A stretch of 64,000 nucleotides of DNA from Streptosporangium lutulentum (GTDB taxonomy: Bacteria > Actinomycetota > Actinomycetes > Streptosporangiales > Streptosporangiaceae), in NCBI RefSeq assembly GCF_030811455.1, contig NZ_JAUSQU010000001.1, positions 3,782,001 to 3,846,000 on the forward strand, given 5' to 3'. The notes beneath the pieces are model-generated. The model saw only the letters and a list, made by a program, of their open reading frames with translations, made no database searches and was not told the origin of the DNA. Positions within the stretch are counted from its first letter, which is position 1. Each line of letters starts with the position of its first letter. The translations under genes and the position numbers were made by a program. Shown one piece after another: positions 20,741-61,160 of the stretch.

Positions 20741-20761
20741 TCGCCCTCCCCCTCGTCGTCA

Positions 20762-22312: not shown

Positions 22313-22351
22313 CACGCCTCCGGGCGTCACAAAGGGATCAACAGAGAGAAA

Positions 22352-25008: not shown

Positions 25009-25015
25009 GCCAGGC

Positions 25016-28252: not shown

Positions 28253-28350
28253 CAGACTCGCGCTCCCGTTGTCATCTCATCGCTTATTGACGTGTCCCCC
28301 GAAAAATCGCCCCCGGCCAGGGGTGGGTTGTGGCCTGCCCCATGCCGGTC

Positions 28351-39699: not shown

Positions 39700-39855
39700 T
39701 CATCATGGCTTGTCCGGAAACCATCAAGCCGGCGTGAGCAGGAAGACCGAGACGACGAACACCATCAACGAACAGCAGATGTGACCAGCGATCGGACCAT
39801 GCCATAACGCCCGGAAGGGCTTGATCGGCAACCCTGTCACCTGGACAACAAAAAC

Positions 39856-39891
39856 GGCCCCGAGCCGGTGTTAGAGCACCGACCCAGGGCC
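39856..39891 (+). promoter_or_regulatory. Leader hairpin upstream of the winged-helix gene
   Basis: An interrupted stem with outer GGCCC / GGGCC and inner CGGTG / CACCG around TTAGAG, ending 37 bp before the start codon. It is flanked by similar ccctg(t/a)cacctgg / ccctgacaacacc sequences. It sits in the leader rather than after a gene, so it is more likely a regulatory RNA fold or small RNA than a terminator. Confidence 0.45.
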
Positions 39892-39928
39892 TTGATCAAT
39901 CACCCTGACAACACCAGGAGAAAGATCC

Positions 39929-44420: not shown

Positions 44421-47400
44421 TCATCGATCCCCATCGCGGTTCCGCCTGCGTCGGGGCGCCACCTGCTGGACGATCAACAACGGACTGCGTTCGGCGGTGA
44501 ACCAGTCCGTGATGATGACCCGCGACGGGTCACCCGCATGGGCGAGCGCCGCGTCGAGCGCGGGCTGGAGCCGGGGGCTCACGAAGCTCTCCTCACACGC
44601 TTCCAAGGGGTGGCGGGCCACGATGGCATACGGCGTGCGCCGTACTTTTACCCCTATGACCCCCGCGTCCGGGAGCAGGAAGTCCCCGTCGTACAGCGCC
44701 CGCAGTCCTCCCAGCGACACTCGCTCACGTTTCACCGCCGAGCTCGCCAGGGCGAGTGGCTCACCGGACAATACGGCGAACAGATCCGCGCCGAGCCGCC
44801 AGTCCAGCAGCGGGTGGAACACCATGTTGTCGTAGTCCCGCAGGCAGCCGTAGCACGACGTTTCGCAGGCATCCGCGTGTGCTGGATCGGTGAGATCTTC
44901 GAGGAACCGGGCGACGTGCCCGGTGAACTCCGAGGCGACCTCGCCAAGGTGGGTGCTGAACCCCGCGCCGTTCTCCAGCGCGTCCGCGAGAAACGCGTAC
45001 AGTGCCGTCCCTTCACGGTGCGGTCCCGGGTGCACGCCCGCGATGAGCTCTCGCGGGTCGACGTCGAGGAACTCCGCGGCGGCGGTGCGCAGCAGAAACG
45101 CCAGGGAGTACCAGGCGGCTCGCCGGCCCTGATGGAGATCCGCTCGGTATCGGGGCCTGGGCTCATCCAGGCCGAGCCGGAGCCCTCGCAGGGGATCACT
45201 GGTCGCTCGCGGCCCGACGAACAGGAAGTCCGTGGGGAGTACGGCCCCGAGCGCGGCCTGGACGGGGTCTCCGAACCCTTTCGCCGTCGGGTCGGCATCC
45301 TGGGGCACGACATAACCGCCCCAGCTTCCGGAGGCCTTCCGGAAGGCGAAGCCGCCGCCGTCATTGTCGTTGACGATGTAGCGTTTCCCCGGCCCCGTGT
45401 AGAGCTCCGCGGAGCGCCACGTCTCGTGGCGTAGGGCGTTCAGGTCGGTGGTGGCACGGGCGGTCACCATACGGGCCGACCAGGAGAAGTTTCCGTCGAA
45501 GTCGCGGGGAGGACTGGCCCTGAACCCCGCTGGTTCCCGCAGGTCCACGACGCGGAATCGCTCAGAGCCGCACAGCGGGCACGGCCCTTCCACCCCGGCG
45601 CCCAGGTGGTTGCACGTGGAGCACAGTCCGATCAGTCGTGGATTCGTGAGCGGCTCGGCGATCGCCCTGGGCTTGCCGTAGGAGTTCGGGGTGAAGTCGG
45701 TGACGCCCACCACCGTGAAGACCTGGCCGTCCTTCACGATCTCGCTACCGGGGGCGAAGGACGATACGGCCATTGCGAGGTCCCGGTCCACGGTCGCCTC
45801 CGGCGGCCATGGATACGAGCGGTCGGGTTCCTTCAGATAGAGCTGCCGCACCCGGGTGGGGAACCCGAACATGGGAAGTGCCCCGAGATGCGCGAGACGC
45901 TCGCCGAGGTCCTCGCTCTCCCCGGGCAGGGCGGCGATTTCCCCGACGCGGTCGAGAAGCCGCTCCGCCCACTCTCCGTCGAATCGTCCCGGAGTGAACG
46001 TCGTGAAGGCCGTGAACGCGGCGGCGCTCGAAGTGATCTGGTCCGGGTTCTCGCGAAACCACCGGCGGATGACGGGTTCGGCGTCGGTCCACTTCGCGGC
46101 GCTGCCGAACTGACCGTGGACACCCCCGGTGCGGTCGGCGGCGGAGATGCCGGTTGCCGCGAACGCCATTCGGAGCGTGTCGCTCGCGACGGTCCGTTCC
46201 AGAATCTCCCGCCGGTCCAGCGCCAGGTAGGGCGCCGGAACAGGGTCGTTGGTCACCGCCCCCGGGTTGCGGAAGTAGTGCTCGTCGTGGCTCCGCCCCC
46301 GGCAGACGGTGAGGGCCACCGCGACCGGCGACGACCGGCGGCCCGCACGGCCGACCCGTTGCTGATAGTTGAACCGGGTGGGCGGCATGTTCGCCATGAC
46401 CACGGCGGACAGCGGCCCGATGTCGATCCCCGCCTCCATCGTGGTCGTCACCGAGAGCAGGTCCAGCTCGTGAACGAGAGCCTGCTCCTCCTCATCGAGA
46501 AAGACGCGCTGGAACCGGGCCTGCCGTCGCTGCGCCTCGACCCGGCCGGTCTGTCCGGTCAGCTCCGCGCAGTTCAAGCGGAACGCCCCCGACGCGGTCG
46601 CGGCCTTCCAGGCGTAATAGTCGTCCTCGGTCGCTCTCAACGCCTCCGGTTCCGCGGGGAGCCGCGCCCGGCAGCCCGTGCACACGCCGGCGCTCGCGGC
46701 GAGATGCTGCCGACCGCACATCCCGCACAGCCATGCGTGATTCTCGGCGGGGCGGAGAGCGACCTTCGCGGGATCGACAAGGAAATCGGCGACGATGCCC
46801 CGCCAGTAGGCTTCCGCCTGGTCGCGTACGTCACCGGGATCGAGGCCATGGACCTCGGCGACCTTCTTCCAGTAGCTGTTCAGCCGTTTGGGAACGCTTG
46901 AGGTGTAGGGATCGCGCAGGCCGGGGAAACGTCGCAGCTCGGCGAGAACCCGCAGGCTGCCCTGGCCGAGCCCGGCGAGTTTCGTGTCGATTCGCGGGTC
47001 AGCGGCGTCGATCCACCCCATCCCCAGCGATTCGAAGTCACGGTTCGAGCCAGAGAACAGTGCCTCCACGGCATTCTCCAGGAGGTCGGCCTCGGCGCTC
47101 AGGACGGTGTCGCGCAGCGCGTCCGACAGCCCGGGGATGAGCCGAATCGGGCGGACCTTCCAGTCGTAGAGTCCGTGCCAGTCGGTGCCACCTGGCTGCT
47201 GTACCGAGGGCTTCGGCCCGGCAGGGTTGACGCCGAGCGTCATCAGTCGCCGGTGGATGAAGGTCTTCGCGAGCAGGTCGAGGCGGAGCGGAGCAGTGAG
47301 CTTCGCTGCGGCGACCGCGGCGGCCTCCTCGTCATCGTCGAGCCAGGCCAGCCGCAGGTCTTTCAGCGCGTCCGGATCCTTCGAGGCGAGCCGATCGAGG

Positions 47401-49544
47401 TCGACCTTGTTGCCCGAGGTCCGGGCCTGGGCGATGTCGTCGCCGCTGACGGTCTGCTCCCGGGTCCCCTGTAGCGCGAAGATCCGTACGAGGTCCTGAT
47501 AGTGGCGCAGGGCCAGACCCGCGGAGAGCTTCGCGGCATTCTGCCGGCTGTCGGAGAAGACGATGAGTTTCCGGTCAGCGGCATCGTCGAACTGCGCCGC
47601 GAGCTCCGTTGAGAGGACCTGATTCACCTTCTCGAACCCGGTGCGCATGGCACTGATGGGAGACATCTGCCGGTCAGGATGAGTGAGGGGAAGGACGCCG
47701 ACGGTGCGATTCTTGGTGCGTTCCCAGTCGGTGGCGCACGAGGGACAGCCGGACGGGAACGGGGAGAGCTTGTCGAGGTCGACTCGGGGCTCCCCTGTCT
47801 CCGGGTCCTTGCTGGACTCGATGTGGAAGCTCCAGCCGGTCGCACCCTCCTCCCTGTTGGCGAGCGTGCCGGCGTGGGGGTCGAGGACGGAAAGGCGGAA
47901 GGAGAGGGTCACCGCGCCCTTCCCCCTCTGGAAGGTGTTTCTGTCGTTCGCCTGCTGCTGAGTGGTCCGCGGCCAGTACACGACGTAGTTGTGGGCCGTA
48001 CGGTCTGGCCTGGCCAGATCCGGGATCCTCGATAGATCCGGCGTGTCCGGAAGAAGGTGCGAGTCGAAGGCGGCACGGTCGAACGCGTCCCAGGGGGCGT
48101 ACCCACCGAGGAAGGTGTCCCCGCATGATCGGCAGAAGAGCAGCTCCAGCACTCGGGCACCGCACCCGCAGAAGATCCTCGGCCGTTCGTACAGCCGGCC
48201 GATCCCCCGTCCCTCATACACGCCACCGGGGATCTGAGGGCATGCCGGATCCGAGCACGCCCACATTCCCGCGACATTGCGGAAGAACAGATGTCCGCGG
48301 ACCTTCTCCGTGGGGGCGACCGTGGCATCGCGCAGAGGGACCGTACGACCGCCACCCACCGCCAGCTCCCCCGGGATGAAGTCGAACTTGTCCTGGCCGA
48401 CCGCGAAGAACTCTTCAGGAAACCCCCGGTCCCGTTCGGAGTCCAGCGACGCCGTTGTCGCGACGATCCGCAGCCGCTCCGGGTGGTCCATGATCCCCAA
48501 CCGCTGCCGGAGGTTGCGGATGAGATACGCCACCTCCGTCCCGGCTGTGCCCCGGTGGATGTGCAACTCGTCGACGACCAGCGTGAATCGGGCTTCCGGC
48601 GTCTCGGAGAGCCACCGCCTGGTGTCCGCGAAGAATCCCGCGTCGCGATCTCGCAGCAGCATGATGTTCAGCATCGAATGGTTCGTGATGAGCAGGTCTG
48701 GCGGCGCGTCGTACATGTCCCACCGCGACAGCATCTCCGCTCCACCTGGTCGGGGTGCGAAATACCGGGTGTTGTCGTCCTCTGCCTTCGCCGCCTGACG
48801 GCTCCGCTTTTCGGCTTCCCGGAGGAACTCACGCAGTTGCCTGACCGCACCTTCCTGCTCCGGCCGGCCCAGCACCGGGGTCCCCCCTGTGTACCGGCCG
48901 AAGTAGAAGCGGTGCCCATCCCTGTTGGCATCGAGCCACGCCCGCGCCGCGTCGCCGTCCAACGCCCGGCGTAATCGCACCAGCTGGTCGTCGACCAGGG
49001 CGTTCGTCGGATACAGCACCATGGCTCGTACGGCCCGAGGTCGCCCCCGTTCACCGGCCCGGTGCGGCACGTACGGCGCGCTTGAGCGCTCCCACCAACG
49101 CTCTGTCGTCCCCGGCGTGCCATCCCACGACCGGGACTCCTTGAGGAGGTCCGCGATGATCGGCAGGAGGAACGCCTCGGTCTTTCCCGACCCGGTCCCC
49201 GCCGTCACCACCACATTCCGCCCCGGAATGAGGGCCGAGACCAGCGCCCGCTCCTGATGCGTGTACAGCTCCCGGTCCGCGCCGAGCAACCCCAATTGTG
49301 CGAAGTCCGCGAGCTCCGCAGGGGCGCCCGCGCGTGCCACCGACTCAGCGAGGGGGCGACCCGTGGTCGCGTACTCCGGTCGGACCTCCACGTACGGCTC
49401 CGTATACATCCCGCCTGGAATGTCCAGCAACGCCCGCCGCTCCGCGCGCAACCGTGGATCCCGTAGCCGGAACGCCGTGTCGTAATACCGCAGATACGCC
49501 TCACGCAGCGCTTCGAAGGTCTGAGCCACATCGAGCTCACTCAT
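44421..49544 (-). CDS. Large DEAD-like helicase with zinc clusters and DUF1998 domain
   Basis: 1707 aa from MSELDVAQTFEALR; the ATG overlaps the previous stop as ATGA. SF2 motifs: Q-motif-like YTHQERAL near 95, Walker A AGTGSGKT at 115-122, motif II DELH at 325-328, motif III VATTASL, motif V MEAGIDIGPL and motif VI QRVGRAGRR (both beyond residue 1000). Four Cys pairs or clusters (CSDPAC...CGCG, CPSC, CGMCG...CTGC, CSTC...CPLC) mark zinc ribbons. The DUF1998 end has CETSCYGCLRDYDN. This architecture (COG1205) is shared with Druantia DruE and resembles DISARM DrmA/DrmB split apart. Last gene of the five-gene system. Confidence 0.93.
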   Translation of the reverse strand: MSELDVAQTFEALREAYLRYYDTAFRLRDPRLRAERRALLDIPGGMYTEPYVEVRPEYATTGRPLAESVARAGAPAELADFAQLGLLGADRELYTHQERALVSALIPGRNVVVTAGTGSGKTEAFLLPIIADLLKESRSWDGTPGTTERWWERSSAPYVPHRAGERGRPRAVRAMVLYPTNALVDDQLVRLRRALDGDAARAWLDANRDGHRFYFGRYTGGTPVLGRPEQEGAVRQLREFLREAEKRSRQAAKAEDDNTRYFAPRPGGAEMLSRWDMYDAPPDLLITNHSMLNIMLLRDRDAGFFADTRRWLSETPEARFTLVVDELHIHRGTAGTEVAYLIRNLRQRLGIMDHPERLRIVATTASLDSERDRGFPEEFFAVGQDKFDFIPGELAVGGGRTVPLRDATVAPTEKVRGHLFFRNVAGMWACSDPACPQIPGGVYEGRGIGRLYERPRIFCGCGARVLELLFCRSCGDTFLGGYAPWDAFDRAAFDSHLLPDTPDLSRIPDLARPDRTAHNYVVYWPRTTQQQANDRNTFQRGKGAVTLSFRLSVLDPHAGTLANREEGATGWSFHIESSKDPETGEPRVDLDKLSPFPSGCPSCATDWERTKNRTVGVLPLTHPDRQMSPISAMRTGFEKVNQVLSTELAAQFDDAADRKLIVFSDSRQNAAKLSAGLALRHYQDLVRIFALQGTREQTVSGDDIAQARTSGNKVDLDRLASKDPDALKDLRLAWLDDDEEAAAVAAAKLTAPLRLDLLAKTFIHRRLMTLGVNPAGPKPSVQQPGGTDWHGLYDWKVRPIRLIPGLSDALRDTVLSAEADLLENAVEALFSGSNRDFESLGMGWIDAADPRIDTKLAGLGQGSLRVLAELRRFPGLRDPYTSSVPKRLNSYWKKVAEVHGLDPGDVRDQAEAYWRGIVADFLVDPAKVALRPAENHAWLCGMCGRQHLAASAGVCTGCRARLPAEPEALRATEDDYYAWKAATASGAFRLNCAELTGQTGRVEAQRRQARFQRVFLDEEEQALVHELDLLSVTTTMEAGIDIGPLSAVVMANMPPTRFNYQQRVGRAGRRSSPVAVALTVCRGRSHDEHYFRNPGAVTNDPVPAPYLALDRREILERTVASDTLRMAFAATGISAADRTGGVHGQFGSAAKWTDAEPVIRRWFRENPDQITSSAAAFTAFTTFTPGRFDGEWAERLLDRVGEIAALPGESEDLGERLAHLGALPMFGFPTRVRQLYLKEPDRSYPWPPEATVDRDLAMAVSSFAPGSEIVKDGQVFTVVGVTDFTPNSYGKPRAIAEPLTNPRLIGLCSTCNHLGAGVEGPCPLCGSERFRVVDLREPAGFRASPPRDFDGNFSWSARMVTARATTDLNALRHETWRSAELYTGPGKRYIVNDNDGGGFAFRKASGSWGGYVVPQDADPTAKGFGDPVQAALGAVLPTDFLFVGPRATSDPLRGLRLGLDEPRPRYRADLHQGRRAAWYSLAFLLRTAAAEFLDVDPRELIAGVHPGPHREGTALYAFLADALENGAGFSTHLGEVASEFTGHVARFLEDLTDPAHADACETSCYGCLRDYDNMVFHPLLDWRLGADLFAVLSGEPLALASSAVKRERVSLGGLRALYDGDFLLPDAGVIGVKVRRTPYAIVARHPLEACEESFVSPRLQPALDAALAHAGDPSRVIITDWFTAERSPLLIVQQVAPRRRRNRDGDR

Positions 49545-50440
49545 TGAATCTCCAATTTTCGGCGCGACGACTTGGCGATCTTCTCGGCGATCCATTTCGG
49601 CACCCCGTCATAGGCATGGCCCTCTGTCAGCCGTATCGGCGGCAGCCCCGTGCACAGGACCGCTGCTTCCCTTTGCCTGCGAGGAAGCGCGGCCCGGTGA
49701 TCGACGATGAGTCGTCCCAGATTGTGCCGTGTTCCCTTACCCGGCTCCGCTCGCCAACGGAACGGAAAAGCGCCAGGTGGCAACGACAGACAGATCCCTT
49801 CGCTCCTGTCGACGGGGTACCACTGGCCGTTGCGGAAGATGGCATGCTGGGGGATCCGCCCATGCAGGAGATATTCATACAATCCCGCGCGCGGAGACGG
49901 GGTCGGTCTTGGCCATCCGAACCGTCCGGACAATGTGTCAAAAGGGGCTAGATCAGTGTTTCGAGCCGGCCCCGGCCCCGGTTGTCCCAGCACCAGGGGA
50001 GTCAACTCACCCGCGATCCGCTCCGCGGCACACGGTTTCAGCGTGGCTCCGAGCGCTGCCCCTGCCTGCTCGTCGTGCCCCTGGAACCACACCGTCGACG
50101 GCAGCTGGATCTGGGTCTCCTGCTGACGCCGGTTTACAACCACGCCCGGCAGGCGCATCCAGTGTTCTGGGGCCGGACGGGTCCCGGTAAGCAGGGTCAC
50201 GCCCGTCTCACCGGGAAGGGCCGTCAGTGTCAACGCCTGAGTCCGCCAGGTGCGCGCGGTCCAGTTGAGGCGGAGGAACCCCAGCACCTCCAGCGACTCG
50301 ATCCACTGAGAGGCCTCGCTGCCGTTGGTCCTGGCAGCCCAGGCCGCATCGCGGCGGAGCCGGTCCAGCCGTCCCGAGCCGACCTCTGCGAGCCAGGAAA
50401 CGAACAGGTCCGGGTCGAAGGCGTGCGGAGTGTCAGCCAC
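49541..50440 (-). CDS. Unknown 299-aa protein of the helicase/MBL/AAA system
   Basis: Start GTG (VADTPHAFDPDLF) overlaps the preceding stop by 8 bp. Its own stop overlaps the helicase ATG, so it is firmly inside the operon. The N-terminal ~65 residues look like a winged helix (DAAWAARTNGSEASQWIESLEVLGFLRLN). The rest is beta-rich with many Pro, Trp and Arg (RWRAEPGKGTRHNLGRLIVDHRAALPRR). No family recognised. It could be a DNA-binding adaptor for the helicase. Confidence 0.85.
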   Translation of the reverse strand: MADTPHAFDPDLFVSWLAEVGSGRLDRLRRDAAWAARTNGSEASQWIESLEVLGFLRLNWTARTWRTQALTLTALPGETGVTLLTGTRPAPEHWMRLPGVVVNRRQQETQIQLPSTVWFQGHDEQAGAALGATLKPCAAERIAGELTPLVLGQPGPGPARNTDLAPFDTLSGRFGWPRPTPSPRAGLYEYLLHGRIPQHAIFRNGQWYPVDRSEGICLSLPPGAFPFRWRAEPGKGTRHNLGRLIVDHRAALPRRQREAAVLCTGLPPIRLTEGHAYDGVPKWIAEKIAKSSRRKLEIQ

Positions 50441-52307
50441 GGCCACGACCACCCATGAGCACCGCATTCAGGTATCTCTTCCAGAGTTTCTCTGGCGGCG
50501 GACGCTCGATCGTGAACATGACTTTCCAGAACTTCCGCATCGCCGGAGTGACCTGAGTGATTCGTGGCTCTTCCGAGTGGCTCATCCGCACCTCGATGGT
50601 TCCGTCCGGGTGATCGATCACGAGCCAGACCGCAGAGTCGGGGATCTCCATCGCGCTGGATTCACCGCACAGCCCTGTGTGACGTTCATGCCACCACACA
50701 GGCGGTTCCGTCGAGGCCAGATCGGTGTGGCGGCCCTCAGCGTCGATCACCGTGGATACCTGTACCAAGGGCTGCTCGGAATTCGCTTTTGGCGAATTCG
50801 TCTTTTCGAGAACGATGTCCTGGGAGGCGTGCAGGTGAAAAGTCAGCCGTCCAACTTCGGTATCAACCATATGCTCACCTGCGGCGAGTCCCCGGCCGCG
50901 AAGCTCCGTGCGCTCTCCTGTAATGGAGATCGGTGCGCCGTCGAGCCGAACGACGTCCACCCCCGGCGGGAGTACCAGATCCGGTTCGCCTCCCACGAGG
51001 TAGTGCCGTCGCTCTCCGGTGAGCCGAAGGTGCAGACCACCCGTAAGTCTGGGCCTGCGTGCTCTGGCTCCGGCACCTTCGGTGAACTCGACGTCGGCCG
51101 CCACGAACCAGCCGTCTACGGAGCTTTCCTCAGGTTCCTCCCACGAGAAGCCTTCCCGCGCCACGAGGCTTCGGGCTTCCGCCTCGCCCTGCCTGTCGAA
51201 GAGGATGAGGGAGGGCGTATGAGGCACGACCTTTTCGACCTCCGTCCATCCACCCAAGGGATCCTCTTGGAGGATGAGCGGGTGCCGCCGGGGCTGAAGG
51301 CTGATCCCCAGCCGCTCGCCGCGCGCGGTAACCCCCGCGGTGAGACCCTGGCAGAGATCTGGCAGGTCGCCTGAGAGCGTATACAGGGCTCCTGTGTCTC
51401 GTGCGGCTACGACGAGGTGGCCACCAGAGTGTGTCAGCGCGTCCCCGTCGACGCCGTCGACGCGCTCCGCTCGCCATTGCAGCGTCCAGCCGTTCCGCGG
51501 ATCGTCGATCGCGGTGATCCGCAGTGGCAGCCGCCGCAGCCCGTTCGGGACAGGGGGAACGCGACTGTCCGACTCGGCGATGGAGATCAGCAGCGGGCCG
51601 AGAAGATTGTCCTCGTTGTTCTTGTCAAGGGCACCCCGAAGCCGGGCGGAGAGACGCGGTCGGCCCTTCCACATCCGCAGCCCTCGTAAAAGGGCGACCG
51701 GCTCGCGTACCTGGCACTCCTTGAAGAACGGAGCCAGTCGATCGTGATCGGCGGCGCACACGAGTGCCTGCGACTGGGCATACCCGATGCGCTCCCGCCC
51801 CTTGGATGTGTGCAGCGTACTGAATCCCCGCGTTCCCTCGCGCTCCTTAAGCCACCCGTCGAGGTATTTCCAGAAGGTCTCCACTGTTTGGTAATCGCGC
51901 TGGAGATGTTTCTTGTGATCGTCCAGCTGGAACCCGGGCGGTGGACGGAGAAGTTCGGCCAGCCGAACGTAGTAGGCATGAGCACCTCGCCCACCCTCAC
52001 CCCGCATCCGCGTCGCCGCCAGCACGCACACCGCGAGGAGCGGCAGGCATGGGGGCGGCCCCTCCTGGGTGGACCGCTTCCAGACAAGGGCCTCGCGGTA
52101 GATCTGCCGGTACGCGTCGCCACGCCAGTCAATGGCCTCCTGCGCGACGGCGGTGCACAGGTCGTCGATGGAGTCGGTGACCTTCGCGTCGCCGTGAAGC
52201 CGCACGGCCTCCTGGTCATCGACGAAGAACAACAGTGGGCGACCGGCCTGATCGACACCGAAGAACTCCTTGGTGAGCCGTGCCTGCCACCAATCATAAG
52301 AACGCAT
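50433..52307 (-). CDS. Unknown 624-aa protein of the helicase/MBL/AAA system
   Basis: Start MRSYDWWQARLTKEF. An open frame extends a further 310 bp upstream, but there it crosses the AT-rich gap and hairpin. The N-terminal ~250 residues are helical with DDQEAVRLHGDAKV and a conserved-looking LTKEFFGVDQAGRPLLFFVDD. The remaining ~370 residues are beta-rich, with several similar Ig-like strands (WTLQWRAERVDGVDG, LTFHLHASQDIVLEK, VWLVIDHPDG). It has no motif I can name and no catalytic signature. It may be a structural or recognition subunit. Confidence 0.85.
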   Translation of the reverse strand: MRSYDWWQARLTKEFFGVDQAGRPLLFFVDDQEAVRLHGDAKVTDSIDDLCTAVAQEAIDWRGDAYRQIYREALVWKRSTQEGPPPCLPLLAVCVLAATRMRGEGGRGAHAYYVRLAELLRPPPGFQLDDHKKHLQRDYQTVETFWKYLDGWLKEREGTRGFSTLHTSKGRERIGYAQSQALVCAADHDRLAPFFKECQVREPVALLRGLRMWKGRPRLSARLRGALDKNNEDNLLGPLLISIAESDSRVPPVPNGLRRLPLRITAIDDPRNGWTLQWRAERVDGVDGDALTHSGGHLVVAARDTGALYTLSGDLPDLCQGLTAGVTARGERLGISLQPRRHPLILQEDPLGGWTEVEKVVPHTPSLILFDRQGEAEARSLVAREGFSWEEPEESSVDGWFVAADVEFTEGAGARARRPRLTGGLHLRLTGERRHYLVGGEPDLVLPPGVDVVRLDGAPISITGERTELRGRGLAAGEHMVDTEVGRLTFHLHASQDIVLEKTNSPKANSEQPLVQVSTVIDAEGRHTDLASTEPPVWWHERHTGLCGESSAMEIPDSAVWLVIDHPDGTIEVRMSHSEEPRITQVTPAMRKFWKVMFTIERPPPEKLWKRYLNAVLMGGRGRG

Positions 52308-52554
52308 GGAAATTATCCGTACTAAGAGGATGACCCAGGAAAATTTTCTGTAGATATAAATCTGAAGGTGGAATCGCACCGAAAAGTCTATGGATGGGTT
52401 CAGCTGAGAGCTCAAGGACGAAATTTTGTGTCTGGCCCTTGGGCATGAGTACGACAGCCGAACACTCGTCGTGTGGTTACCAGGCCGGTCTTTAAAATGC
52501 GGCGGAACACGCCCCTGAAAACTCTTGAGCCCGGCCTGGTAACCGCACGACGTA
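52308..52554. promoter_or_regulatory. AT-rich gap inside the operon, probable second promoter
   Basis: This 247-bp space is the only sizeable gap in the five-gene operon. Its AT content is far above the window average, e.g. around 52330-52370 (aaaattttctgtagatataaat). It contains a 10-bp perfect palindrome GAAAATTTTC at 52339-52348, 32 bp before the start of the 624-aa gene, and the long inverted repeat at 52467-52552. A separate promoter for the last three genes is likely but no clear -35/-10 pair was fixed. Confidence 0.4.
52467..52552. repeat. Long inverted repeat (22-bp arms, 42-bp loop)
   Basis: Left arm 52467-52488 and right arm 52531-52552 are complementary at 21 of 22 positions (arms contain GGTTACCAGGCCGG and its complement). 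The structure ends 2 bp before the stop codon of the MBL gene (52555-52557, minus strand). Arms of this length exceed an ordinary terminator. Options include a terminator/attenuator, a MITE-like element or a structured RNA that the system uses or senses. Confidence 0.75.
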
Positions 52555-54606
52555 TTAGGTCGCTCTCCAGGCCCTCGTGTCCGTCGTGGTGTGCCGACGC
52601 ACCCGGAGAACCTCACGGAACCCGAGTTGGCGCTTGGCCATGCCGTGGACCAGCATCACCTCGCGCGCCGACACCTCGTCAGCGATCTCCAGCAGTCCCC
52701 GCTTGTCGGCGTGCGCGGACAGTCTCATCAGATCCACCCGCGCCTTGATCGGGATCTTCTTCTCCTCGCCCATGTCATCGATGACCAGGTGAGGCGCACT
52801 GTCCCGCGCGGATGTCAGCAGTCGCTTGCCCGGTGATTCCTCGTCCTGGTAGCCGGAGAGAAACAGAGCACTTTTCGGATCCGGGAGAATTCTGGCCGCC
52901 CACCGCACAGCGGGACCGCCGGAGAGCATTCCTGAGGTGCTGATCACCACTCCGCGGGTGAACTCATCCAGGTCGCCGGGCCTGGCACGACTCACATTGT
53001 CACCGAAGATCGAAAGTCGGCGAGGCCCATCTGCGGTCACGGTCTCGAACGACCTGCTGATGTCGGCGGCCATACCGTCGACGAGGACCGGAATGTGCGG
53101 AAGGTGGCCTCGCATGATGAGGGCTAGTTCCTGCGCGCGACCGAGGGCGAACGCCGGAATGAGCACTCGGCCCCCCTCGGCGTATACCCCCTCCACAGCT
53201 CTGACGAGATCACCGACCATGCCGTCGCGATCACGGTGATCCTCCGTACAACAGGTGGACTCCATGATGAGCAGGTCAGCGTATCGAGCCGAATCAGGAA
53301 TGCTGTAGCCGTCGACGCTTTCCTGCCGGAACCCTGAGATATCCCCGGTGACGACGACACGGGATTCTCCGGCCCGCACCACGACTCCGGCGGCTCCCAG
53401 GATGTGGCCGGCCGGAAACAGCTCCACCGTCAGGTCGCCGACCCGGCGTGGAACGCCGAAGGCCAGTTCCTCGCAGCGCTGCGTCGCCCTGGCGATCGCC
53501 TCACGCGGGTAGAGCGGCTCCGTCTCTACCCCCCAGTCACTCGCCAGCCGCTGTCGCTGGTTCATGATCTTTACGGAGTCAAGCCACATCGCCGGCATGA
53601 GTTGCGTGGTCTCCGGCGTGGCGATGATCCGTAGATTCGGCGACCGGCCGGCCAACGCTGGGACGTACCCACAGTGATCATTATGGGCATGCGTCACCAC
53701 AACGGCGTGGATGGGGCCGTCCAGCGCGCGCTCGATCTCCGGAGGCGGTTCGGACGGGTCTCCCGGAACGAGTCCCGCGTCAACCAGAATGCGAGTGTCT
53801 CCCGCCTCGATCAGCAGACACGAGCCGCCGATCTTCGTCCCGCCGCCCAGCGGCGCAACCCTCAGGTCGCGTTCCTGGGAGACGACCACCGTAGCCGTGA
53901 GCGGTGGCTTCGGAGGTTCGATCAGCGCCTGGAGTGCGGAGACAAACGACTCGGGATTGATTCCGGCAGCCTGCGCCGCTACTTCCAGCGGGGATGGCCG
54001 GGACTCCGCCGACACCTCTGGCAGCCGGTGTGGGTCGCGACTCCTCGCATCGCCCTCGATCTCTAGGGGCTCCTCCTGGAGCAGCGCGAGGAGCGCCGAC
54101 GCCATGGACTTGACGTCACGAAGCCGCCGCCGCATCGCCGAGAGCTCGACATCAAGCCGATCGGCCCGTTCCACCGCCTCGCGCGCCGCCTCACGGTGTT
54201 TCTCCGCGTCGGCCAGCGCGTTGTCATGCCGCCCGGTGGCCGTCCGCAGCTTCTCCTGCAACTGCTTGTTCTTGTCGTTCAGACGGTGGAGCCTGCGATC
54301 TGCAGCCGTGTCGGACGATCTTCTCGCGGCTGACTCCGCGATCCTGGCCGCGGCCGCCCGCACCGCCGAATCGGAGTGGAGAAAAAGCTCGGCGAAATCC
54401 CGCTCGGCTTGCCTCGATCGAGGAATCCGCAGACGCTCCCGGCTGAGTTGCCGTAGCTCCGTCGACTCGGTGAGCATGTCGAACAGCATGCTCCTGTGAT
54501 CGGCGACGAATGCCTCGGCACCACCTCCGTATCCCGCCATCGCGGGACGGGTGAGGATAACCTCTGCTGTCGCGCGCAGCAGCGGGGACAGCGGGTCGGC
54601 TGTCAT
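52555..54606 (-). CDS. Coiled-coil plus beta-CASP metallo-beta-lactamase nuclease (CPSF73-like)
   Basis: 683 aa, ATG overlapping the AAA gene stop (ATGA). Residues ~1-100 are helical and ~100-175 a coiled coil (LNDKNKQLQEKLRTATGR...). The MBL domain starts near 250: THAHNDHCG (zinc ligands 306-311), PAGHILGAAG (400-407), GDISG (421) and MESTCC (448). The beta-CASP cap follows with LVDGMAADI (508), STSGMLSGGPA (556) and SGYQDEESPGKRLL (584). The final SAHADKRG (630) and VHGM (653) complete the active site. This family cuts RNA or DNA (CPSF73, RNase J, archaeal aCPSF). A coiled-coil N-terminal extension in an operon with a giant ATPase is unusual. Confidence 0.93.
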   Translation of the reverse strand: MTADPLSPLLRATAEVILTRPAMAGYGGGAEAFVADHRSMLFDMLTESTELRQLSRERLRIPRSRQAERDFAELFLHSDSAVRAAAARIAESAARRSSDTAADRRLHRLNDKNKQLQEKLRTATGRHDNALADAEKHREAAREAVERADRLDVELSAMRRRLRDVKSMASALLALLQEEPLEIEGDARSRDPHRLPEVSAESRPSPLEVAAQAAGINPESFVSALQALIEPPKPPLTATVVVSQERDLRVAPLGGGTKIGGSCLLIEAGDTRILVDAGLVPGDPSEPPPEIERALDGPIHAVVVTHAHNDHCGYVPALAGRSPNLRIIATPETTQLMPAMWLDSVKIMNQRQRLASDWGVETEPLYPREAIARATQRCEELAFGVPRRVGDLTVELFPAGHILGAAGVVVRAGESRVVVTGDISGFRQESVDGYSIPDSARYADLLIMESTCCTEDHRDRDGMVGDLVRAVEGVYAEGGRVLIPAFALGRAQELALIMRGHLPHIPVLVDGMAADISRSFETVTADGPRRLSIFGDNVSRARPGDLDEFTRGVVISTSGMLSGGPAVRWAARILPDPKSALFLSGYQDEESPGKRLLTSARDSAPHLVIDDMGEEKKIPIKARVDLMRLSAHADKRGLLEIADEVSAREVMLVHGMAKRQLGFREVLRVRRHTTTDTRAWRAT

Positions 54607-57600
54607 GCGCGGCCCTCCAGCCAATCGCTCGCCGCGGCCAGGACCGGCTCGCAGGCGAAGGTACCGTCGTCTCTCGGCTCCAGTGCACCGAGTAGACGGA
54701 GGACTTCGACCAGGGCAGCCCAGGAGGGGTACCCGTTGGCGCGGAGACTGTCCCGATGCAGCGGATCGGTGGCCTCATCACCGGCCATCTCCTCCAGATA
54801 TTCGGCGAGCTCATCCGGGCGCGCCGGACCCACCTCAATCATCTGCTGCCAGGCCTGCCGGAGCGTGGAGTCCCTGAGCACGCCGGTCGCTCTGATGAAT
54901 TCCCCGGCGTTCGCCCGGATCCAGTCGCGGCAGCGCTCAAGCGCGTGGTCTCGGTCAGCGGGCTGGCCCTCGACAACCTTACTGATCAAGAGCGGCCACC
55001 CACCGGTGTGCTTCAGCAGCGCGTCCTGACTGGCCGGATTGCGATAGCCGAGATCGGCGTCGTTCATCCACTGGCGTACGTCCGGCTCGTCGTAACGCCG
55101 GAGCTCCATGACCCAGGCGAGACGCGAGAGCTCACCCGTATCCGTGCCCACAGCCAGCCAGAGAGGGATCAGCTCGGGCGGTGCCACCAGTGCCACCGCC
55201 AACGTTCCGGGGCCTCCCGACGATACGGCGCTCGCCGCACTCTTGAGAGTCTCAGTCGCCTGCTCGAACGAACGCCCCGCAAGGTTCACGACCACGACGC
55301 CGTGGCCGGCGCTGTCCCTGGCTCGCTGGACAGCGCCTTCAAAGGTGCATCCATTCCCCACCCGCCATACCTGGGCGACGTGCTGACGTTCAGCTTCTTC
55401 TTTCAGCGCCGCACCGACGCGTTCGATGTGCAGGGCCTCAGAGCCCGTGATCAGATGGAGGCTGTCACCGGGACTCAGCAGGCGAGTCACCTGGCCTCCC
55501 GTAAGCGGGGACCGGTCGGGGCCGTTCCGGTAAAGAGCCCGATAGGAGTGAGCGTCGAAGGAGTCAGGCTGTTCGAACTCCTCGGCCTTCGAAAGGATGG
55601 TGTTGACCTCGTCCGCGCCCCCCAGCAGGGTCAGCACGTGGGGCGTGCGGAGGCGATATCCGTCGACGTCCGAGGAGAGCACACCGAGGTTGGCGCATTC
55701 CTCCAGCAGTCCGCGGAAATCATCGCTGGTGCATTTCTTGAAACCGGCGGGCCACCAGGTGAGGCATTCCTCCCGCAGCTTCTGTACGCTGATGGTCGCG
55801 TCCATGCCGTTCGACAGTGCATGGAACGCGACCGCATAAGCGATCACCTTGTAGCGCTTGTCCAGGTCGAGCGTCCACTCGAATCGGTCCCGGAACCCGA
55901 CCTCGAGTGCCTTGTCCCGCCAGACCGTGTCCACGTCCTCACGCGTGATCTCGTACGGCAGGCCGCCACCGTGGATCGGCATCCGACGCAGCCGCCTCAG
56001 CAGGGCTTCGGCGAAGAGCTGGATATGCGCGGGGGCGTTGTTGGCCTCGGCGATGATACGCGCCGCCAAGGTGGCCTGGAAACGGAAACCCAGCGCCATA
56101 AAAGGGCGTGTAAGCAGATCGAAGGCATCTTGTGGGTCCAACGGCCCGATCGGAATCGGCGTCCCCAGGTGCGTCAGGGGCTGGTTGGAAAGGCCCTTGA
56201 ACCTGGCGGTCTGATGGAGGCCGGCGAAGACCACCTTGACTCGCTGGTCTGTGTCCCGCATGAGATCGCGGAGAGCCTCCACGTTCGTGAACTTCGCGTT
56301 GGCGGCATCCTGGTTGAGGAAGGCATCCGCCTCGTCGAGCAAAATCAGCACCTGCCGGGTCGGGTCCTGCTCCATCCATTGCCTGACCAGCCGGCAGATT
56401 TCTCCACGATCCTTCAGCGAAGCCCCCGACTGCGGGAGCGCCCCTGCTTCGGCGAGTCTGCCTGCCAGGCGCGGCCACAGTGCGCTCTCCGGAACGATCT
56501 TGCCGATCTCCTGGATGGTCTCCAGGATCACAACGCGGTCGGGATCACTTCTACGGAGACTCCGCTCGGCCTCGCGAAGCAACGCCGACTTGCCGAGCTG
56601 GCGTCCGCCGTACACGATCGACGAACCCGAACTGCTGGTCACGCTCTCCAACTGGGAGGAACGACCGTAGAACATCTCCATCGGCACATCCCCGGTGGGG
56701 GCATAGGGGTTGGCCGCGCTGAACGGCGCGAGCAAGTTGACCGTGGCGGTCCAGCTCGCCTCGGGCAGGGCGGCGAGGTAGTTGATCGCTGCGTCGTCCA
56801 CCACCGCGGCGACCGGACGGGGACGCCTGCGCGCGGCCGTGGTCAGCTGCTCACGCTGGTTCGGGGACAGCACTCCGAAATAGAACACCAGGACAGTCCG
56901 GTCCTGGGGCTCGTCCTTTAGCCATTCGATCAGCTGCTGCGGTCCGGGCCTGCGCCAGACAAACAGCAGCCGCAGGCTGTTTCCCGATGGGCTCATCTTC
57001 GACCCGAACTCCGGAAGCAACGCGTCACCGAAACGGACTTCGTTCAGAGTCACCCACAGCCGATTCGGCGCCTCGACTCCGGGCTCTTGAAGACCCTCCA
57101 GTCCGATCATCCGCAGCACGGCTTTGATCGCACTTTCCAGGTTGCCTGCGGCTTTGCGTCCCAGAGCCAGTGTCTTCCACAGGCGCAGCCCTTCTTTGGA
57201 CTCCTCACGCCGGCCGGGAGGCAGCGCCTGGATGTCGAGTTGGGCCTCGGACATAACGCGGTGCAGGTCCGGATCGGCGACATCGCGACCGATCTGAATA
57301 GCCTCCATGAGGCTTTTGACCCATTCGTCACTCTCCCGCTTCCGTGCCCGTCCCCCCGAGGAAAGGAAGGACATGCTCTCGAACGCCTGAGGAAAACTCG
57401 GGAAGAAGCGGCTGAAGTGATCAACGGCCTTCTGGGTCGTAGGAAGCGGTTTTCCTGCCTCCGCCTGAGCCATGCACTCACGTGCGGTCGTCAGATCGCC
57501 TCTAGCGATGTGCTCCCTGATGCGGGGTGCGGCCGCTCGCACATCAGGGTGATCGCTGCTCTTCTCATCCAGCCGGGCTTCTTCAGCAGAGATCTGTGCG

Positions 57601-60600
57601 GCACGGACGGCCTTGGCCTTGGACTCCAGTGCCGCGATGTTCTCCGTGATGATGCCGAAGTCCTCCCTGCCGGACTCGGCCAGTGCCTGAAGCCTGCTCA
57701 CGATCCTCGTCGCATCCGCCTCAGTGAGCACTCCATCCCTGCGCCAGCCGGCGAGCTGATCCTTGGCGGCCTCCACGCGCTGGTCCCGGAGCTTTCTCGC
57801 ATCCACAACGAGTGCGTCCCTCTTCTGCCGTAGGCTCGCCGCTAGGTCGGGATCCTGGCGTGAGAGCACCGTGACCACGGCGCGCGTCCCCTCGTGGTCG
57901 TCCCGCGCGGCTCGGGTGTCGAAAGCCATTCGCCAGTCGAGTGAGTCCGCTGTCGCGATCCGGGCCAGCGCCTCCAGCGTCGGAATCTCTCGAGGTCGCA
58001 GGCTCTCCGGATCGACCACCACCTCGGGAGCGAAGAGAAGATCCTGGTTGAGCACGGCGGCCACCGTTGGTTCCGTCTCGCTCAAGACCGCACCGTCAAG
58101 CAGATGGAGGGTGTCGGTGATCAAGTAGGCCGCTCCCGTCGCGGCCGCCGCCAGCGCTGGATCCCCAGCCTTGGCAAGAGCGTCAAACTCCTCACGGAGG
58201 GTCGCCCGGTGGGGACCGACCTCCTGCCGGAGCTTCGCCAACCCCTGGAACAGCCATTCGCTCGACCCGTCCCGGCGCCGGCTATGAACGCCTTGTACGG
58301 CGGTCGCCCAGGTTGCGACGTGTTCCAACGCCTCATCGATCATTTCAACCAGCTTGGATCGCGCCCCTGCAATGATCTTGTTGTTGCGAGACCCCGCTGA
58401 ACGCTTCGCCTCACGGTCGATCAGTCTGTCGATCTCGTCGGCCGCGCGAAGTTTATCGAGCTTCTCGACGGTCTCTTTCAGGAGCCCGGTGTCGTTGCGG
58501 GCCGCGACGCCGACCAGCTCGCCCACGGCCCCCTCCGGCTGGATGAGCGACTTCCACACCCCGGTGGCCAGAGCGAATTTGATCCTTCTGTGCGGTCCCT
58601 CTTCGAGAAGACGCAAACAGGTAGCGGTCGCGCGATCCTGATCGCGCTCAGCTTCCGCGGAGTCACGCATCTGATCGGAGAGTCCCGGTACCAGATAGAC
58701 GCCGGAGCGCAGTGCCTGGCTGAAAGCCTCTCCGCATGCCGTCATGGCCGGATATGGCAGGACCGTAGAAGCCAACTCCTCCACCAAGCGCGCCGACTCG
58801 GGGGTGGGATGGACCAGCCCCGCGCGAATCGACGCCGCCCAGGCCAAAAGACGGCCCGCTGCGTCACCACTCAGATCGTCGGTCACGATCTGCTGGGCCG
58901 TTTCGCTGAATGCCGCAGAGAGCCGCCCAGCGAACGCGCTCATATCGACGGCCAGAGCGGCGCAGCGCCGTGCGGCTATCTCGGAGTGCGGACGCCCCAC
59001 CGCGACTCGGATCCAGGCTGCCAGGCCGAAACGCTGCGCACGAAGTGCTGCGACTTCCTCTTCCCCGAAGTTCCCGGGAGACGATGCTTCGGAATCAGCG
59101 ACCGATCCCGCATAAGGGAGCGCCGGTTCCTCGGCCGTTGAGGCCTCCGGAACGACGGACGCCTTCGGGCGTACGTTACGCGGTTGAGCCGGGCGTGCCT
59201 CGGGCTGAGATCCGAACCGGCTTTCCAGCATGCGGTCCAGATCAGCCAGGTTTGATATTTCCTCCACGCTGTCTGGATCGACGACAGCCTCTCCTGCCGG
59301 TGGCCCGGCGTCGGGAGCGGAAGCAGGAGGTGTCACGCCCCCCTCGTCGCCCTCTTCCTCGTCGTTCTCATCCGACATTTCGTCCTTAGCTGGAGCCTTC
59401 CCGGAGACATCATCGGCGAATGGCAGTTCCACCTTGAGCCGTCCATTCAGGGCAGCTCGGATCACCGGCTGCCACCGCGAGGGCAGTTCCCTTCTCGCAG
59501 AATCTTCGAGCTCATCCGCGAGCAGGATCGCGTCCGTGTCAGCGGAAAGTTCGATCAAACCGGCAAGGGCCTCAAGCCCGGCAGAGGAGCCTTCAGCAGC
59601 CGCCTTTCGAACTTCGGCGAGCAGCCCATCGAGAAGCGGCGGTCCCTGGAGATGTACCAGCGCACCCACGCGGTCAGCCTGAGCTTGTACGACCTCGGCC
59701 TGATCGAGGGCACGCTCCAGCTCGTCCACCACGGTCGTCGTCACCTCAGCCGAGCTGATGCGCTGGATCTGGTCTCGAACCTCGTCGAATTCGTCCAAGA
59801 CTCGCGCGATCATGTCGACATCCGGGTCGGAGGGACGCAGGCCACTGGAGAGCGCCTCATGAACCCGTCCAGCCGCTCCGGCGGCTGCTCCGAAGCAGTC
59901 CCTGAGTTGTTCCAAGGAGCGCCGTAGGTCCTGAGCGGGAAAATCAATCCGGTGATCTTCGGACATTGGTGCGCTCTCCTCCTCTTCGGTGACCACGACA
60001 TGGTCGTGAGGCGCTTGCATGAGCGCTAGGGCCACTGCACCCAGGACGTCGGCTCCAGCAGGAGCTTCCGGCAATTCGGGTGAGTCGCTCTGGACCTGCC
60101 GCCACAGCCTCTCCACAACGCCCCCAGCCTCGGCTCCCAGCCTGTGGGCTGACGCGGCGAGCATGCCCAGTGCGACAGGAGAGAGAGGAAGGTCTCGCCG
60201 AAGAGCATCCGCGAGAATGAGGTCGACCAGATTGCCAGGCATCTGTGCCATGTTGCGCAGCGCCATTCCGATGCCGCCGGCCTCTCTCAACACCTTCTCC
60301 GCGGTTTCCTCACTCAGTAGAAGGCCGCAGTCCTCGGCGGACAGCTCATCGGTGTTGCCGAAAGCCCAGATAGCCAAGGCACTCAGGATGCCGACGAGCG
60401 ATAATCGTTTGGCGTCTGAGGCGTTTAGCACGCGCACGAGATTCGCGGCGACCGACGGGGTCATCGCTTTCTGGTGAGACAGCCCTACCTGGTGGAAGAT
60501 CGCTTGCCGTACCTGTGGGGGATAGTGCCTGACGGCGGCCAGGAAGTCGTCAGCGCTCACTCTGGTTGCGGCACTCGCGAGCACTTGATCCAGTTGCTGG

Positions 60601-60695
60601 AAAGAATCGAACTTCGAGAGCAACCCCAGTGGCGCATGGCGTTCGGGCTCGCTCTCCTTGTGACGGCTCCGTTTCACGATCGAGGCCACCTCCAT
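54603..60695 (-). CDS. Giant AAA ATPase, about 2030 aa
   Basis: Start uncertain: ATG at 60693-60695, or GTG at 60675-60677 (VKRSRHKES), which has GGAGG 11 nt upstream. Residues 1-420 are helical with coiled-coil parts. A disordered acidic linker covers ~430-545 (DEMSDENDEEEGDEGG). More helical repeats run to ~1200, and an alpha/beta segment with LLFVWRRPGPQQLIEWL lies near 1245. An ORC/STAND-type ATPase follows: Walker A GGRQLGKS (1363-1370), Walker B ILLDEADAFL (1451-1460) and FAGLHQTARFKGL (sensor 1, near 1490). A winged helix lies after 1600, and a second alpha/beta and helical region ends the protein. First gene of the five-gene operon; no described family is recognised for the whole. Confidence 0.85.
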   Translation of the reverse strand: MEVASIVKRSRHKESEPERHAPLGLLSKFDSFQQLDQVLASAATRVSADDFLAAVRHYPPQVRQAIFHQVGLSHQKAMTPSVAANLVRVLNASDAKRLSLVGILSALAIWAFGNTDELSAEDCGLLLSEETAEKVLREAGGIGMALRNMAQMPGNLVDLILADALRRDLPLSPVALGMLAASAHRLGAEAGGVVERLWRQVQSDSPELPEAPAGADVLGAVALALMQAPHDHVVVTEEEESAPMSEDHRIDFPAQDLRRSLEQLRDCFGAAAGAAGRVHEALSSGLRPSDPDVDMIARVLDEFDEVRDQIQRISSAEVTTTVVDELERALDQAEVVQAQADRVGALVHLQGPPLLDGLLAEVRKAAAEGSSAGLEALAGLIELSADTDAILLADELEDSARRELPSRWQPVIRAALNGRLKVELPFADDVSGKAPAKDEMSDENDEEEGDEGGVTPPASAPDAGPPAGEAVVDPDSVEEISNLADLDRMLESRFGSQPEARPAQPRNVRPKASVVPEASTAEEPALPYAGSVADSEASSPGNFGEEEVAALRAQRFGLAAWIRVAVGRPHSEIAARRCAALAVDMSAFAGRLSAAFSETAQQIVTDDLSGDAAGRLLAWAASIRAGLVHPTPESARLVEELASTVLPYPAMTACGEAFSQALRSGVYLVPGLSDQMRDSAEAERDQDRATATCLRLLEEGPHRRIKFALATGVWKSLIQPEGAVGELVGVAARNDTGLLKETVEKLDKLRAADEIDRLIDREAKRSAGSRNNKIIAGARSKLVEMIDEALEHVATWATAVQGVHSRRRDGSSEWLFQGLAKLRQEVGPHRATLREEFDALAKAGDPALAAAATGAAYLITDTLHLLDGAVLSETEPTVAAVLNQDLLFAPEVVVDPESLRPREIPTLEALARIATADSLDWRMAFDTRAARDDHEGTRAVVTVLSRQDPDLAASLRQKRDALVVDARKLRDQRVEAAKDQLAGWRRDGVLTEADATRIVSRLQALAESGREDFGIITENIAALESKAKAVRAAQISAEEARLDEKSSDHPDVRAAAPRIREHIARGDLTTARECMAQAEAGKPLPTTQKAVDHFSRFFPSFPQAFESMSFLSSGGRARKRESDEWVKSLMEAIQIGRDVADPDLHRVMSEAQLDIQALPPGRREESKEGLRLWKTLALGRKAAGNLESAIKAVLRMIGLEGLQEPGVEAPNRLWVTLNEVRFGDALLPEFGSKMSPSGNSLRLLFVWRRPGPQQLIEWLKDEPQDRTVLVFYFGVLSPNQREQLTTAARRRPRPVAAVVDDAAINYLAALPEASWTATVNLLAPFSAANPYAPTGDVPMEMFYGRSSQLESVTSSSGSSIVYGGRQLGKSALLREAERSLRRSDPDRVVILETIQEIGKIVPESALWPRLAGRLAEAGALPQSGASLKDRGEICRLVRQWMEQDPTRQVLILLDEADAFLNQDAANAKFTNVEALRDLMRDTDQRVKVVFAGLHQTARFKGLSNQPLTHLGTPIPIGPLDPQDAFDLLTRPFMALGFRFQATLAARIIAEANNAPAHIQLFAEALLRRLRRMPIHGGGLPYEITREDVDTVWRDKALEVGFRDRFEWTLDLDKRYKVIAYAVAFHALSNGMDATISVQKLREECLTWWPAGFKKCTSDDFRGLLEECANLGVLSSDVDGYRLRTPHVLTLLGGADEVNTILSKAEEFEQPDSFDAHSYRALYRNGPDRSPLTGGQVTRLLSPGDSLHLITGSEALHIERVGAALKEEAERQHVAQVWRVGNGCTFEGAVQRARDSAGHGVVVVNLAGRSFEQATETLKSAASAVSSGGPGTLAVALVAPPELIPLWLAVGTDTGELSRLAWVMELRRYDEPDVRQWMNDADLGYRNPASQDALLKHTGGWPLLISKVVEGQPADRDHALERCRDWIRANAGEFIRATGVLRDSTLRQAWQQMIEVGPARPDELAEYLEEMAGDEATDPLHRDSLRANGYPSWAALVEVLRLLGALEPRDDGTFACEPVLAAASDWLEGRA

Positions 60696-61160
60696 CTCCA
60701 GCGGAGCACGCTAGAGGTCAGCACAGATAGATGGACTTACCGCTTGGAGTCGATCTCGCAAGGCCGCGGCCCGAGTGCCTCACGCCACAACATCGACTCT
60801 TGTGTATAGGGAAGGTACAGGCGATGCCAAAAAACTACAATAGTCGATTTTATCTCGTGATCTGGATTCACAGCCTGCATGCATGTTTCTTGCTCGGGGA
60901 TCATCCAGGCAGGCGATGAAGGGCCCCCATCCACAGGCCAACCCGGACTGCGGGATCCAGGCCACAACGGCGCCGCGCCGTTTGCTGGCCGCCGACTCAT
61001 CGGCAAGTGCGATGAAGGGACCGTTCCAAGTTGCTCTTGCTCAAGATCTATGCAATTCCCTAGCGTTTCCAGTCATATCATGATCTTTAGCATTAAAAGT
61101 AGATAATTACATAAAAACATTGCGATCGGCCTTCACGAGCGGATCACCAGTTCGGTTCAC
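60696..61160. other. Intergenic region upstream of the giant AAA gene
   Basis: A gap of 465 bp holding the operon promoter (60803-60830) and an AT-rich segment at 61020-61120. The short open frames on both strands have no SD signal and no recognisable sequence. The right part precedes a kinase-WD40 pseudogene and may be debris from the same decay. Confidence 0.5.
60803..60830 (-). promoter_or_regulatory. Sigma70-like promoter of the giant AAA / MBL operon
   Basis: On the minus strand TTGGCA (60825-60830) and TATACA (60803-60808) are separated by 16 bp, close to the housekeeping consensus. The -10 lies 107 bp upstream of the ATG at 60695, leaving a ~100-nt leader. Consensus-like boxes are uncommon in GC-rich actinomycete DNA, which supports this assignment. 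Confidence 0.6.

Follow-up and report, generated by a model that had tools for sequence, protein, structure and literature searches.

A conserved STAND ATPase–beta-CASP nuclease gene pair beside Druantia type IV in Streptosporangium lutulentum

In AVAST type I, a STAND NTPase is encoded together with Avs1a, an enzyme of the metallo-beta-lactamase (MBL) fold. Druantia type IV, described in 2021, comprises DruE, DruF and DruL without DruM or DruG, according to the parts consulted of that description (PMC8565338), while in type III Druantia the consulted parts of a further paper present DruE as a helicase-nuclease effector and DruH as the likely sensor (PMC13192584). We analysed a 64,000-nt stretch of Streptosporangium lutulentum DNA (the window, to which all coordinates refer unless a locus is named) that carries five consecutive genes on the minus strand, which an initial annotation had proposed to form a single undescribed five-gene complex. 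We found instead that the row divides in two at a 247-bp gap. The last three genes are an ordinary, already known Druantia type IV set. The first two encode a giant STAND ATPase and a beta-CASP nuclease and constitute a separate, conserved module, which is apparently undescribed in that it is absent from PADLOC-DB 2.0.0 of 2023, Pfam, NCBIfam and the literature searched.

A row of five genes in two modules

All five open reading frames are open at their proposed coordinates, with start codons at 54606, 52307 and 49544 and a GTG start for DruL at 50440; across the loci analysed, some starts are longest-frame calls, and the lengths and overlaps that rest on them are upper bounds. The row consists of the following features:

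54603–60695, minus strand: giant STAND NTPase, 2030 amino acids (aa) (Pfam AAA_22, E 9.4e-07; predicted fold)
52555–54606, minus strand: beta-CASP metallo-beta-lactamase nuclease, 683 aa (Pfam Lactamase_B, Beta-Casp and RMMBL)
52467–52552, no strand: inverted repeat of 2 x 22 bp, a hairpin right after the beta-CASP stop (repeat search and folding)
52308–52554, no strand: AT-rich spacer of 247 bp between the beta-CASP pair and Druantia IV (GC profile, gene ends)
50433–52307, minus strand: DruF4, 624 aa (PADLOC PDLC00052, E 7.9e-103)
49541–50440, minus strand: DruL4, 299 aa (PADLOC PDLC00057, E 5.8e-51)
44421–49544, minus strand: DruE4, 1707 aa, a YprA-family helicase with an MrfA Zn-binding domain (PADLOC PDLC00051, 2079 bits; Pfam DEAD, Helicase_C and MZB)

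All junctions but one overlap by 4–8 bp, as had been claimed: by 4 bp between the ATPase and beta-CASP genes (54606/54603, ATGA), by 8 bp between DruF and DruL (50440/50433) and by 4 bp between DruL and DruE (49544/49541). The remaining junction is the spacer, where the GC content drops to 41% (52300–52399). The arms of its repeat (52467–52488 and 52531–52552) are complementary at 21 of 22 positions, begin 2 nt past the beta-CASP stop and fold into a hairpin of -53.6 kcal/mol (z -7.4), which is probably the end of the ATPase-nuclease transcription unit or a junction scar. Searched with up to 3 substitutions in the window and the loci examined, the repeat recurred as one arm only, in locus L024. 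The consensus-like promoter reported before the first gene could not be reproduced by a sigma-70 scan of 60600–61200, and the same scan gave no promoter in the spacer region (52100–52700); actinomycete promoters often deviate from the sigma-70 consensus.

Genes three to five match the three defining PADLOC families of Druantia type IV within one overlapping operon, with no essential difference seen, and the 624- and 299-aa proteins previously taken for unknowns thereby receive an identity. DruM and DruG were not among the PADLOC matches listed for the five genes or for the adjacent genes scanned. The published set lacks the two upstream genes of the window, and neither was met beside it in the other loci examined. 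The helicase, initially described as a DUF1998 protein, a class that occurs in both Druantia and DISARM, is of the DruE type, with 44 bits on DrmA against the 2079 on DruE4. Elsewhere, the same genome has another frame for a YprA/DruE-like helicase, 2233 aa long and divergent (G000:C1:9763607-9768517, locus L028).

Conservation of the pair without Druantia

We scanned an ATPase profile against genome contigs and used the best 80 of the 526 relatives found among the candidates, which represent 77 distinct loci. In 42 of these 77, a beta-CASP relative directly follows the ATPase gene, and in 40 of them the overlap between its start codon and the ATPase stop is exactly 4 bp. The fetched flanks of the 42 loci, some of them short or ended by contig ends, held no DruF or DruL match of at least 45 bits, and two gave weak matches to the DruE helicase (67 and 47 bits). 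Within the window's own family, 27 of 200 genomes, its own included, had a strong match to the ATPase core; weak-only matches (≤30 bits, in 12 of 39 family genomes) were not counted as relatives. A family sample of 20 loci from 19 other genomes contained the pair in every case, with DruE, DruF or DruL in none of the stretches fetched; 13 of these loci are contigs already among the 42 and 7 are new, giving 49 pair loci besides the window, and one further strong genome (G463, 526 bits) lies outside the fetched set. The expectation that homologues stay together was therefore borne out for the ATPase and beta-CASP genes, which are neighbours in 49 further actinomycete loci, and failed for the five-gene unit, since none of these 49 showed DruF or DruL in its fetched flanks.

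A genome-wide search of the 19 other pair genomes gave no DruL in 18 and one weak partial match (34.7 bits) in the last. Conversely, DruL4 was present in 5 of 396 Actinomycetota genomes, including that of the window, and the four other loci carry neither the ATPase nor the beta-CASP gene within 17.7–19.9 kb around; their DruL4 scores are 307, 78, 35 and 33 bits, the weak ones making two of the four doubtful as type IV. No beta-CASP gene was seen in six weaker family relatives (37–41% identity over the core), one of which, L162, shares its contig with L084 and is cut off at the ATPase. Carriage of the pair on plasmids was considered and rejected, as the 27 plasmid records with ATPase relatives (E 1e-5) and the 9 with beta-CASP relatives (stricter, 1e-40) share no record. 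The stretches inspected in 8 of the 27 ATPase records held no annotated beta-CASP or MBL gene, and DruL had no match on plasmids.

Neither protein matched a PADLOC family below E 0.001 (best mad8, E 0.034, for the ATPase and HEC-07, E 0.0076, for the nuclease). In a literature search without subscription journals and most preprints, we found no paper whose title or opening abstract lines describe this pair and none treating Druantia together with a beta-CASP enzyme, and Druantia type IV was named only in the PADLOC paper (PMC8565338); the parts seen of a 2025 survey of YprA-family systems likewise describe no such pair (PMC12458937).

We regard comparison with a same-genus genome (G553, locus L136) as decisive for modularity. 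There the pair, 85% identical in DNA, sits at the same site, but the 11.6 kb that hold Druantia IV and the Nsn genes in the window are missing: the two landmarks, an ortholog of window 39809–40969 and the pair, lie 830 bp apart in G553 and 11587 bp apart in the window. We found no match to the Nsn genes at the corresponding L136 site. The HsdR and HsdM stretches (window 24360–28431 and 29581–32181) were matched in the same fetched piece of G553, which makes this one island with different cargo.

The Nsn genes, the Menshen system, lie directly downstream of DruE and, together with the Druantia type IV genes in the row, support the defence context claimed for the locus:

43066–44226, minus strand: NsnA (PADLOC, E 4.1e-134)
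41970–43082, minus strand: NsnB (PADLOC, E 6e-109)
41027–41944, minus strand: NsnC (PADLOC, E 6.6e-103)

Further along, an island at 20762–32023 encodes a PD-T4-6/mad6-like Ser/Thr kinase with TPR, an N6 methylase, a YgjP-like metallopeptidase, HsdR, HsdS and HsdM. A 246-bp stretch shared at 88% identity adjoins the kinase gene in the window (20515–20760) but the ATPase-nuclease pair in L136 (12110–12355), a hint of rearrangement or of a mobile boundary. On the other side, some 1.2 kb ahead of the pair and on the opposite strand, is a gene for an 831-aa SMC/RecF-like ATPase with LmuB- and mad3-like matches (L027 2861–5356; window start 61860).

Architecture, proposed role and alternatives

The initial assignment of a beta-CASP MBL nuclease is upheld by intact catalytic residues. 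Behind an N-terminal extension of about 240 aa that appears coiled-coil-like by eye, ten metal and active-site residues (D282, H312, H314, D316, H317, H407, D428, E455, H638 and H660) are invariant in all 50 pair proteins, window included; they correspond to MBL motifs 1–4 and beta-CASP motifs A–C. The nearest solved relatives are PH1404 (an aCPSF1), INTS11, CPSF73 and TTHA0252. By analogy with these and with the Cas14 match described below, RNA is a likelier substrate than DNA, and beta-CASP enzymes are able to cut DNA as well.

Predicted structures of the ATPase cover residues 565–2030 and divide them as follows:

residues 565–1180: all-alpha region (AlphaFold model, pLDDT 90.9)
residues ~1190–1320: alpha/beta region (predicted model)
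residues 1327–1708: STAND core resembling a nucleotide-binding domain (NBD), helical domain and winged-helix domain (predicted model)
residues 1709–2030: second alpha/beta and helical part (predicted model)

The AlphaFold2 model of residues 1170–2030, built with 53 sequences, reached a pLDDT of 90.0 and a pTM of 0.84. Its core best matched the archaeal ATPase 2qen (Z 19.8, root mean square deviation 4.2, 323 residues aligned), followed by the NRC4 resistosome (Z 17.8), CED-4 (Z 16.6) and RPP1 (Z 16.5); these matches span residues ~1327–1708, so that the comparison barely tests the other parts. The modelled core matches the STAND/ORC clade, with a predicted ORC/NLR-type NBD and winged-helix fold. 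In the 53 sequences, window included, the G, G, R, L, G and K of Walker A (GGRQLGK) are invariant and its Q is conserved in at least 90%, as are the E and second D of Walker B (LLDEAD), whose first D is invariant. Motifs and fold together agree with the large STAND/ORC-type ATPase originally named.

DISARM-like genes lie downstream of the pair in 6 of the 42 loci:

L054, Nocardia: DrmA (PADLOC, E 1.1e-102), DrmE (Pfam DrmE_C) and DrmB (PADLOC)
L056, Nocardia: DrmA (by similarity to L054), DrmE and DrmB (by similarity)
L060, Goekera: DrmA (by similarity to L054), a gene of 792 aa in the place of DrmE, and DrmB (by similarity)
L064, Nocardioides: DrmA (by similarity to L054) and DrmE (by similarity); the locus ends inside DrmA
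L065, Nocardia sp. NRRL S-836: DrmA (PADLOC), DrmE (Pfam DrmE_C) and DrmB (by similarity)
L067, Geodermatophilus: DrmA (PADLOC), DrmE (Pfam DrmE_C) and DrmB (by similarity)

The gene after the beta-CASP gene overlaps or abuts it in five of the six (longest-frame calls); in L064 an antisense gene intervenes. On a tree of 81 ATPase cores, made by a quick method and with some long branches, the association requires at least 4 changes of state. The DrmA relatives are only 30–38% identical to the L054 protein, L056 (81%) excepted, which argues that the association is not recent. Since these genes overlap or abut it, the pair is evidently able to join a larger operon with a YprA-family helicase, and an interaction with Druantia IV in the window is therefore conceivable, if unproven.

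On balance, we think it fairly probable that the window holds two neighbouring modules, A (60695–52555), in which the STAND NTPase and the beta-CASP nuclease would serve in defence, and B (52307–44421), Druantia type IV. In module A, the long all-alpha region and its flanking domains would detect an infection cue; the STAND core would then rearrange or oligomerise in an ATP-driven manner and switch on the co-translated beta-CASP enzyme, which would cleave nucleic acid, more probably RNA, and so stop the phage or the infected cell. Patchy presence, the neighbouring genes, the logic of a STAND protein coupled to a nuclease and matches to a kinase model all suggest a defence role. Restriction, SNF2 or DISARM probes matched 17 of the 49 flanks of the pair, which average 15.3 kb, and 0 of 40 random 20-kb stretches, a result to which we give little weight because the probes came from the pair loci and the window. 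Comparing nearest-neighbour genes with PADLOC is fairer, and weaker: 136 families were matched by at least one neighbour and 40 by at least one random gene, the random set giving 4 mad3 matches. Of the 88 neighbours, 10 matched the PD-T4-6 kinase model, against 1 of the 79 random genes; the Fisher p of 0.008 overstates the difference, since actinomycetes have many kinases and the rows are not independent of each other.

Several observations count against a defence role or the proposed division of labour. The neighbour comparison rests on the top 25 families listed for each set and not on members with any match. No DISARM-like genes occur in the flanks of 36 of the 42 pair loci, and in 32 of 49 flanks all non-kinase defence probes were negative. 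Within Streptosporangiales, the ATPase tree roughly follows host families, so that transfer may be rare, a poorer fit to defence genes. STAND proteins and beta-CASP enzymes are in addition known from regulation and RNA processing. The all-alpha region is likely the sensor, a role that amounts to a guess because the region had no PDB match at E ≤ 0.001. Nor is the hairpin a constant mark of the pair's end: a palindrome of at least 17 bp follows the beta-CASP stop in just 2 of 16 other pair loci (L055 and L074, both unrelated to the window's repeat), and the same-genus L136 has no strong palindrome there.

In one alternative, the pair would form a unit for regulation or RNA turnover, a STAND regulator with its RNase, outside immunity. 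The nearest solved nuclease relatives, which are RNA-processing or termination nucleases, the partial agreement of the ATPase tree with host families and the many flanks free of non-kinase probes would all suit such a unit. We nevertheless judge it unlikely, given its patchy occurrence in the family (27 of 200 genomes), the defence island that the window represents and the range of genes adjoining ATPase relatives (DISARM-like, DinG/DpdF-type, PLD-SNF2, HEPN-motif and pPIWI_RE). The pair might alternatively be an accessory of defence systems with a YprA helicase, DISARM-like elsewhere and Druantia IV here, acting jointly when both are present and otherwise alone. The six loci with DISARM-like genes, with their repeated changes of state and old association, speak for this, yet six of 42 is a small share and neither module requires the other for its presence; we consider this account improbable.

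The integrated complex originally proposed, with sensing by the ATPase, remodelling by the helicase and cleavage by the beta-CASP enzyme, is highly improbable. The five genes share a strand and, but for one gap, tight spacing, and occur together in one genome; an analogous row, the pair closely followed by DISARM-like genes, is found in 5 loci. Against this stand the 49 flanks free of DruF and DruL, the same-genus genome with the pair at the same site and no Druantia, the absence of the pair from the four other DruL4-positive Actinomycetota loci (two of them with weak DruL4 scores) and the hairpin and AT-rich gap at the junction. The flanks, the same-site comparison and the DruL4 loci largely refute the five-gene unit. 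What is worth keeping is the ATPase-nuclease pair: with the false five-gene system removed, a cleaner target emerges, a compact two-gene STAND-nuclease unit with conserved catalytic residues that can be tested alone.

Partners of the ATPase family and comparison with known systems

Across the 77 loci, the ATPase stands beside different partners: the beta-CASP nuclease in 42, a protein labelled c2 in 16, another labelled c3 in 13 and a PLD-SNF2 helicase in 2, with 4 not assignable (L072, L084, L099 and L103, the first two ending within or at the ATPase). The c2 protein (~750 aa) is encoded upstream of the ATPase; the single member tested matched no Pfam family. A detectable c5 gene (~1900 aa) precedes it in 10 of these 16 loci, and the single c5 member tested showed RNase T and DinG- and DpdF-like helicase parts. 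For c3, the HEPN_Swt1 match fell below threshold, but all 13 sequences keep the R, N, L and H of an RNxLxH motif that resembles the signature of HEPN RNases. The tree, which left out rows whose ATPase frame is shorter than 1000 aa (L021, L022, L050, L072 and L103), placed 41 of 42 beta-CASP rows in one clade (support 100; L068 was not placed with confidence), all 17 c2 rows in another (support 97) and the c3 and PLD-SNF2 rows, except L063, in a third group of 19. No PADLOC model was found for the ATPase member tested.

It is possible, at somewhat less than an even chance in our estimate, that these giant STAND NTPases (~1800–2400 aa) form an NLR-like family that serves as a common sensor chassis for clade-specific effectors acting in trans, with the beta-CASP branch repeatedly docked onto YprA-helicase systems (DISARM-like ones, and perhaps Druantia IV here). 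If so, one sensor family would drive chemically different effectors encoded next door, providing a natural test of STAND-to-effector signalling in trans, and a sizeable part of actinomycete immunity would be unannotated.

Three other rows were observed alongside. The order c2 then ATPase, often with c5, recurs in L071 (1–14209) and 15 further loci from Streptomyces, Micromonosporaceae, Pseudonocardiaceae and others, and is a candidate undescribed system. On an Azospirillum ramasamyi plasmid (L019), an ATPase relative carrying a fragment of a pPIWI RNaseH domain near its N-terminus adjoins pPIWI_RE genes. In an actinomycete metagenome-assembled genome (L063, 1987–16317), a YprA/DruE-like helicase precedes an ATPase whose partner carries the HEPN motif, another YprA-STAND association.

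Like AVAST type I, the window pair joins a STAND NTPase to an MBL-fold enzyme that has a gene of its own. Membership was rejected: the nuclease scored E 0.07 and 11.8 bits on the Avs1a model NF041809, against a cutoff of 420, the best PADLOC match of the ATPase is that at E 0.034, and the beta-CASP and RMMBL domains group the nuclease with CPSF73, PH1404 and TTHA0252 instead. DISARM membership was likewise rejected; with DrmB also missing among the 25 of 31 matches listed, the window has DruE4 and not DrmA and DrmB, and its ATPase and nuclease match no DISARM family in PADLOC, although genes like DrmA, DrmB and DrmE do follow the pair in the six loci above. The nuclease also resembles Cas14 of type VII CRISPR, another defence-associated beta-CASP enzyme, matching model NF045584 at E 2.4e-54. 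At 184.7 bits against a cutoff of 800, identity with Cas14 was rejected, and its partner is a STAND ATPase and not a CRISPR RNA complex. Finally, the predicted ATPase core superposes on the NLR and CED-4 STAND proteins NRC4, CED-4 and RPP1, with the archaeal 2qen scoring above them. It differs from them in that a separate gene encodes the proposed effector, and in the position of the all-alpha region, N-terminal to the core.

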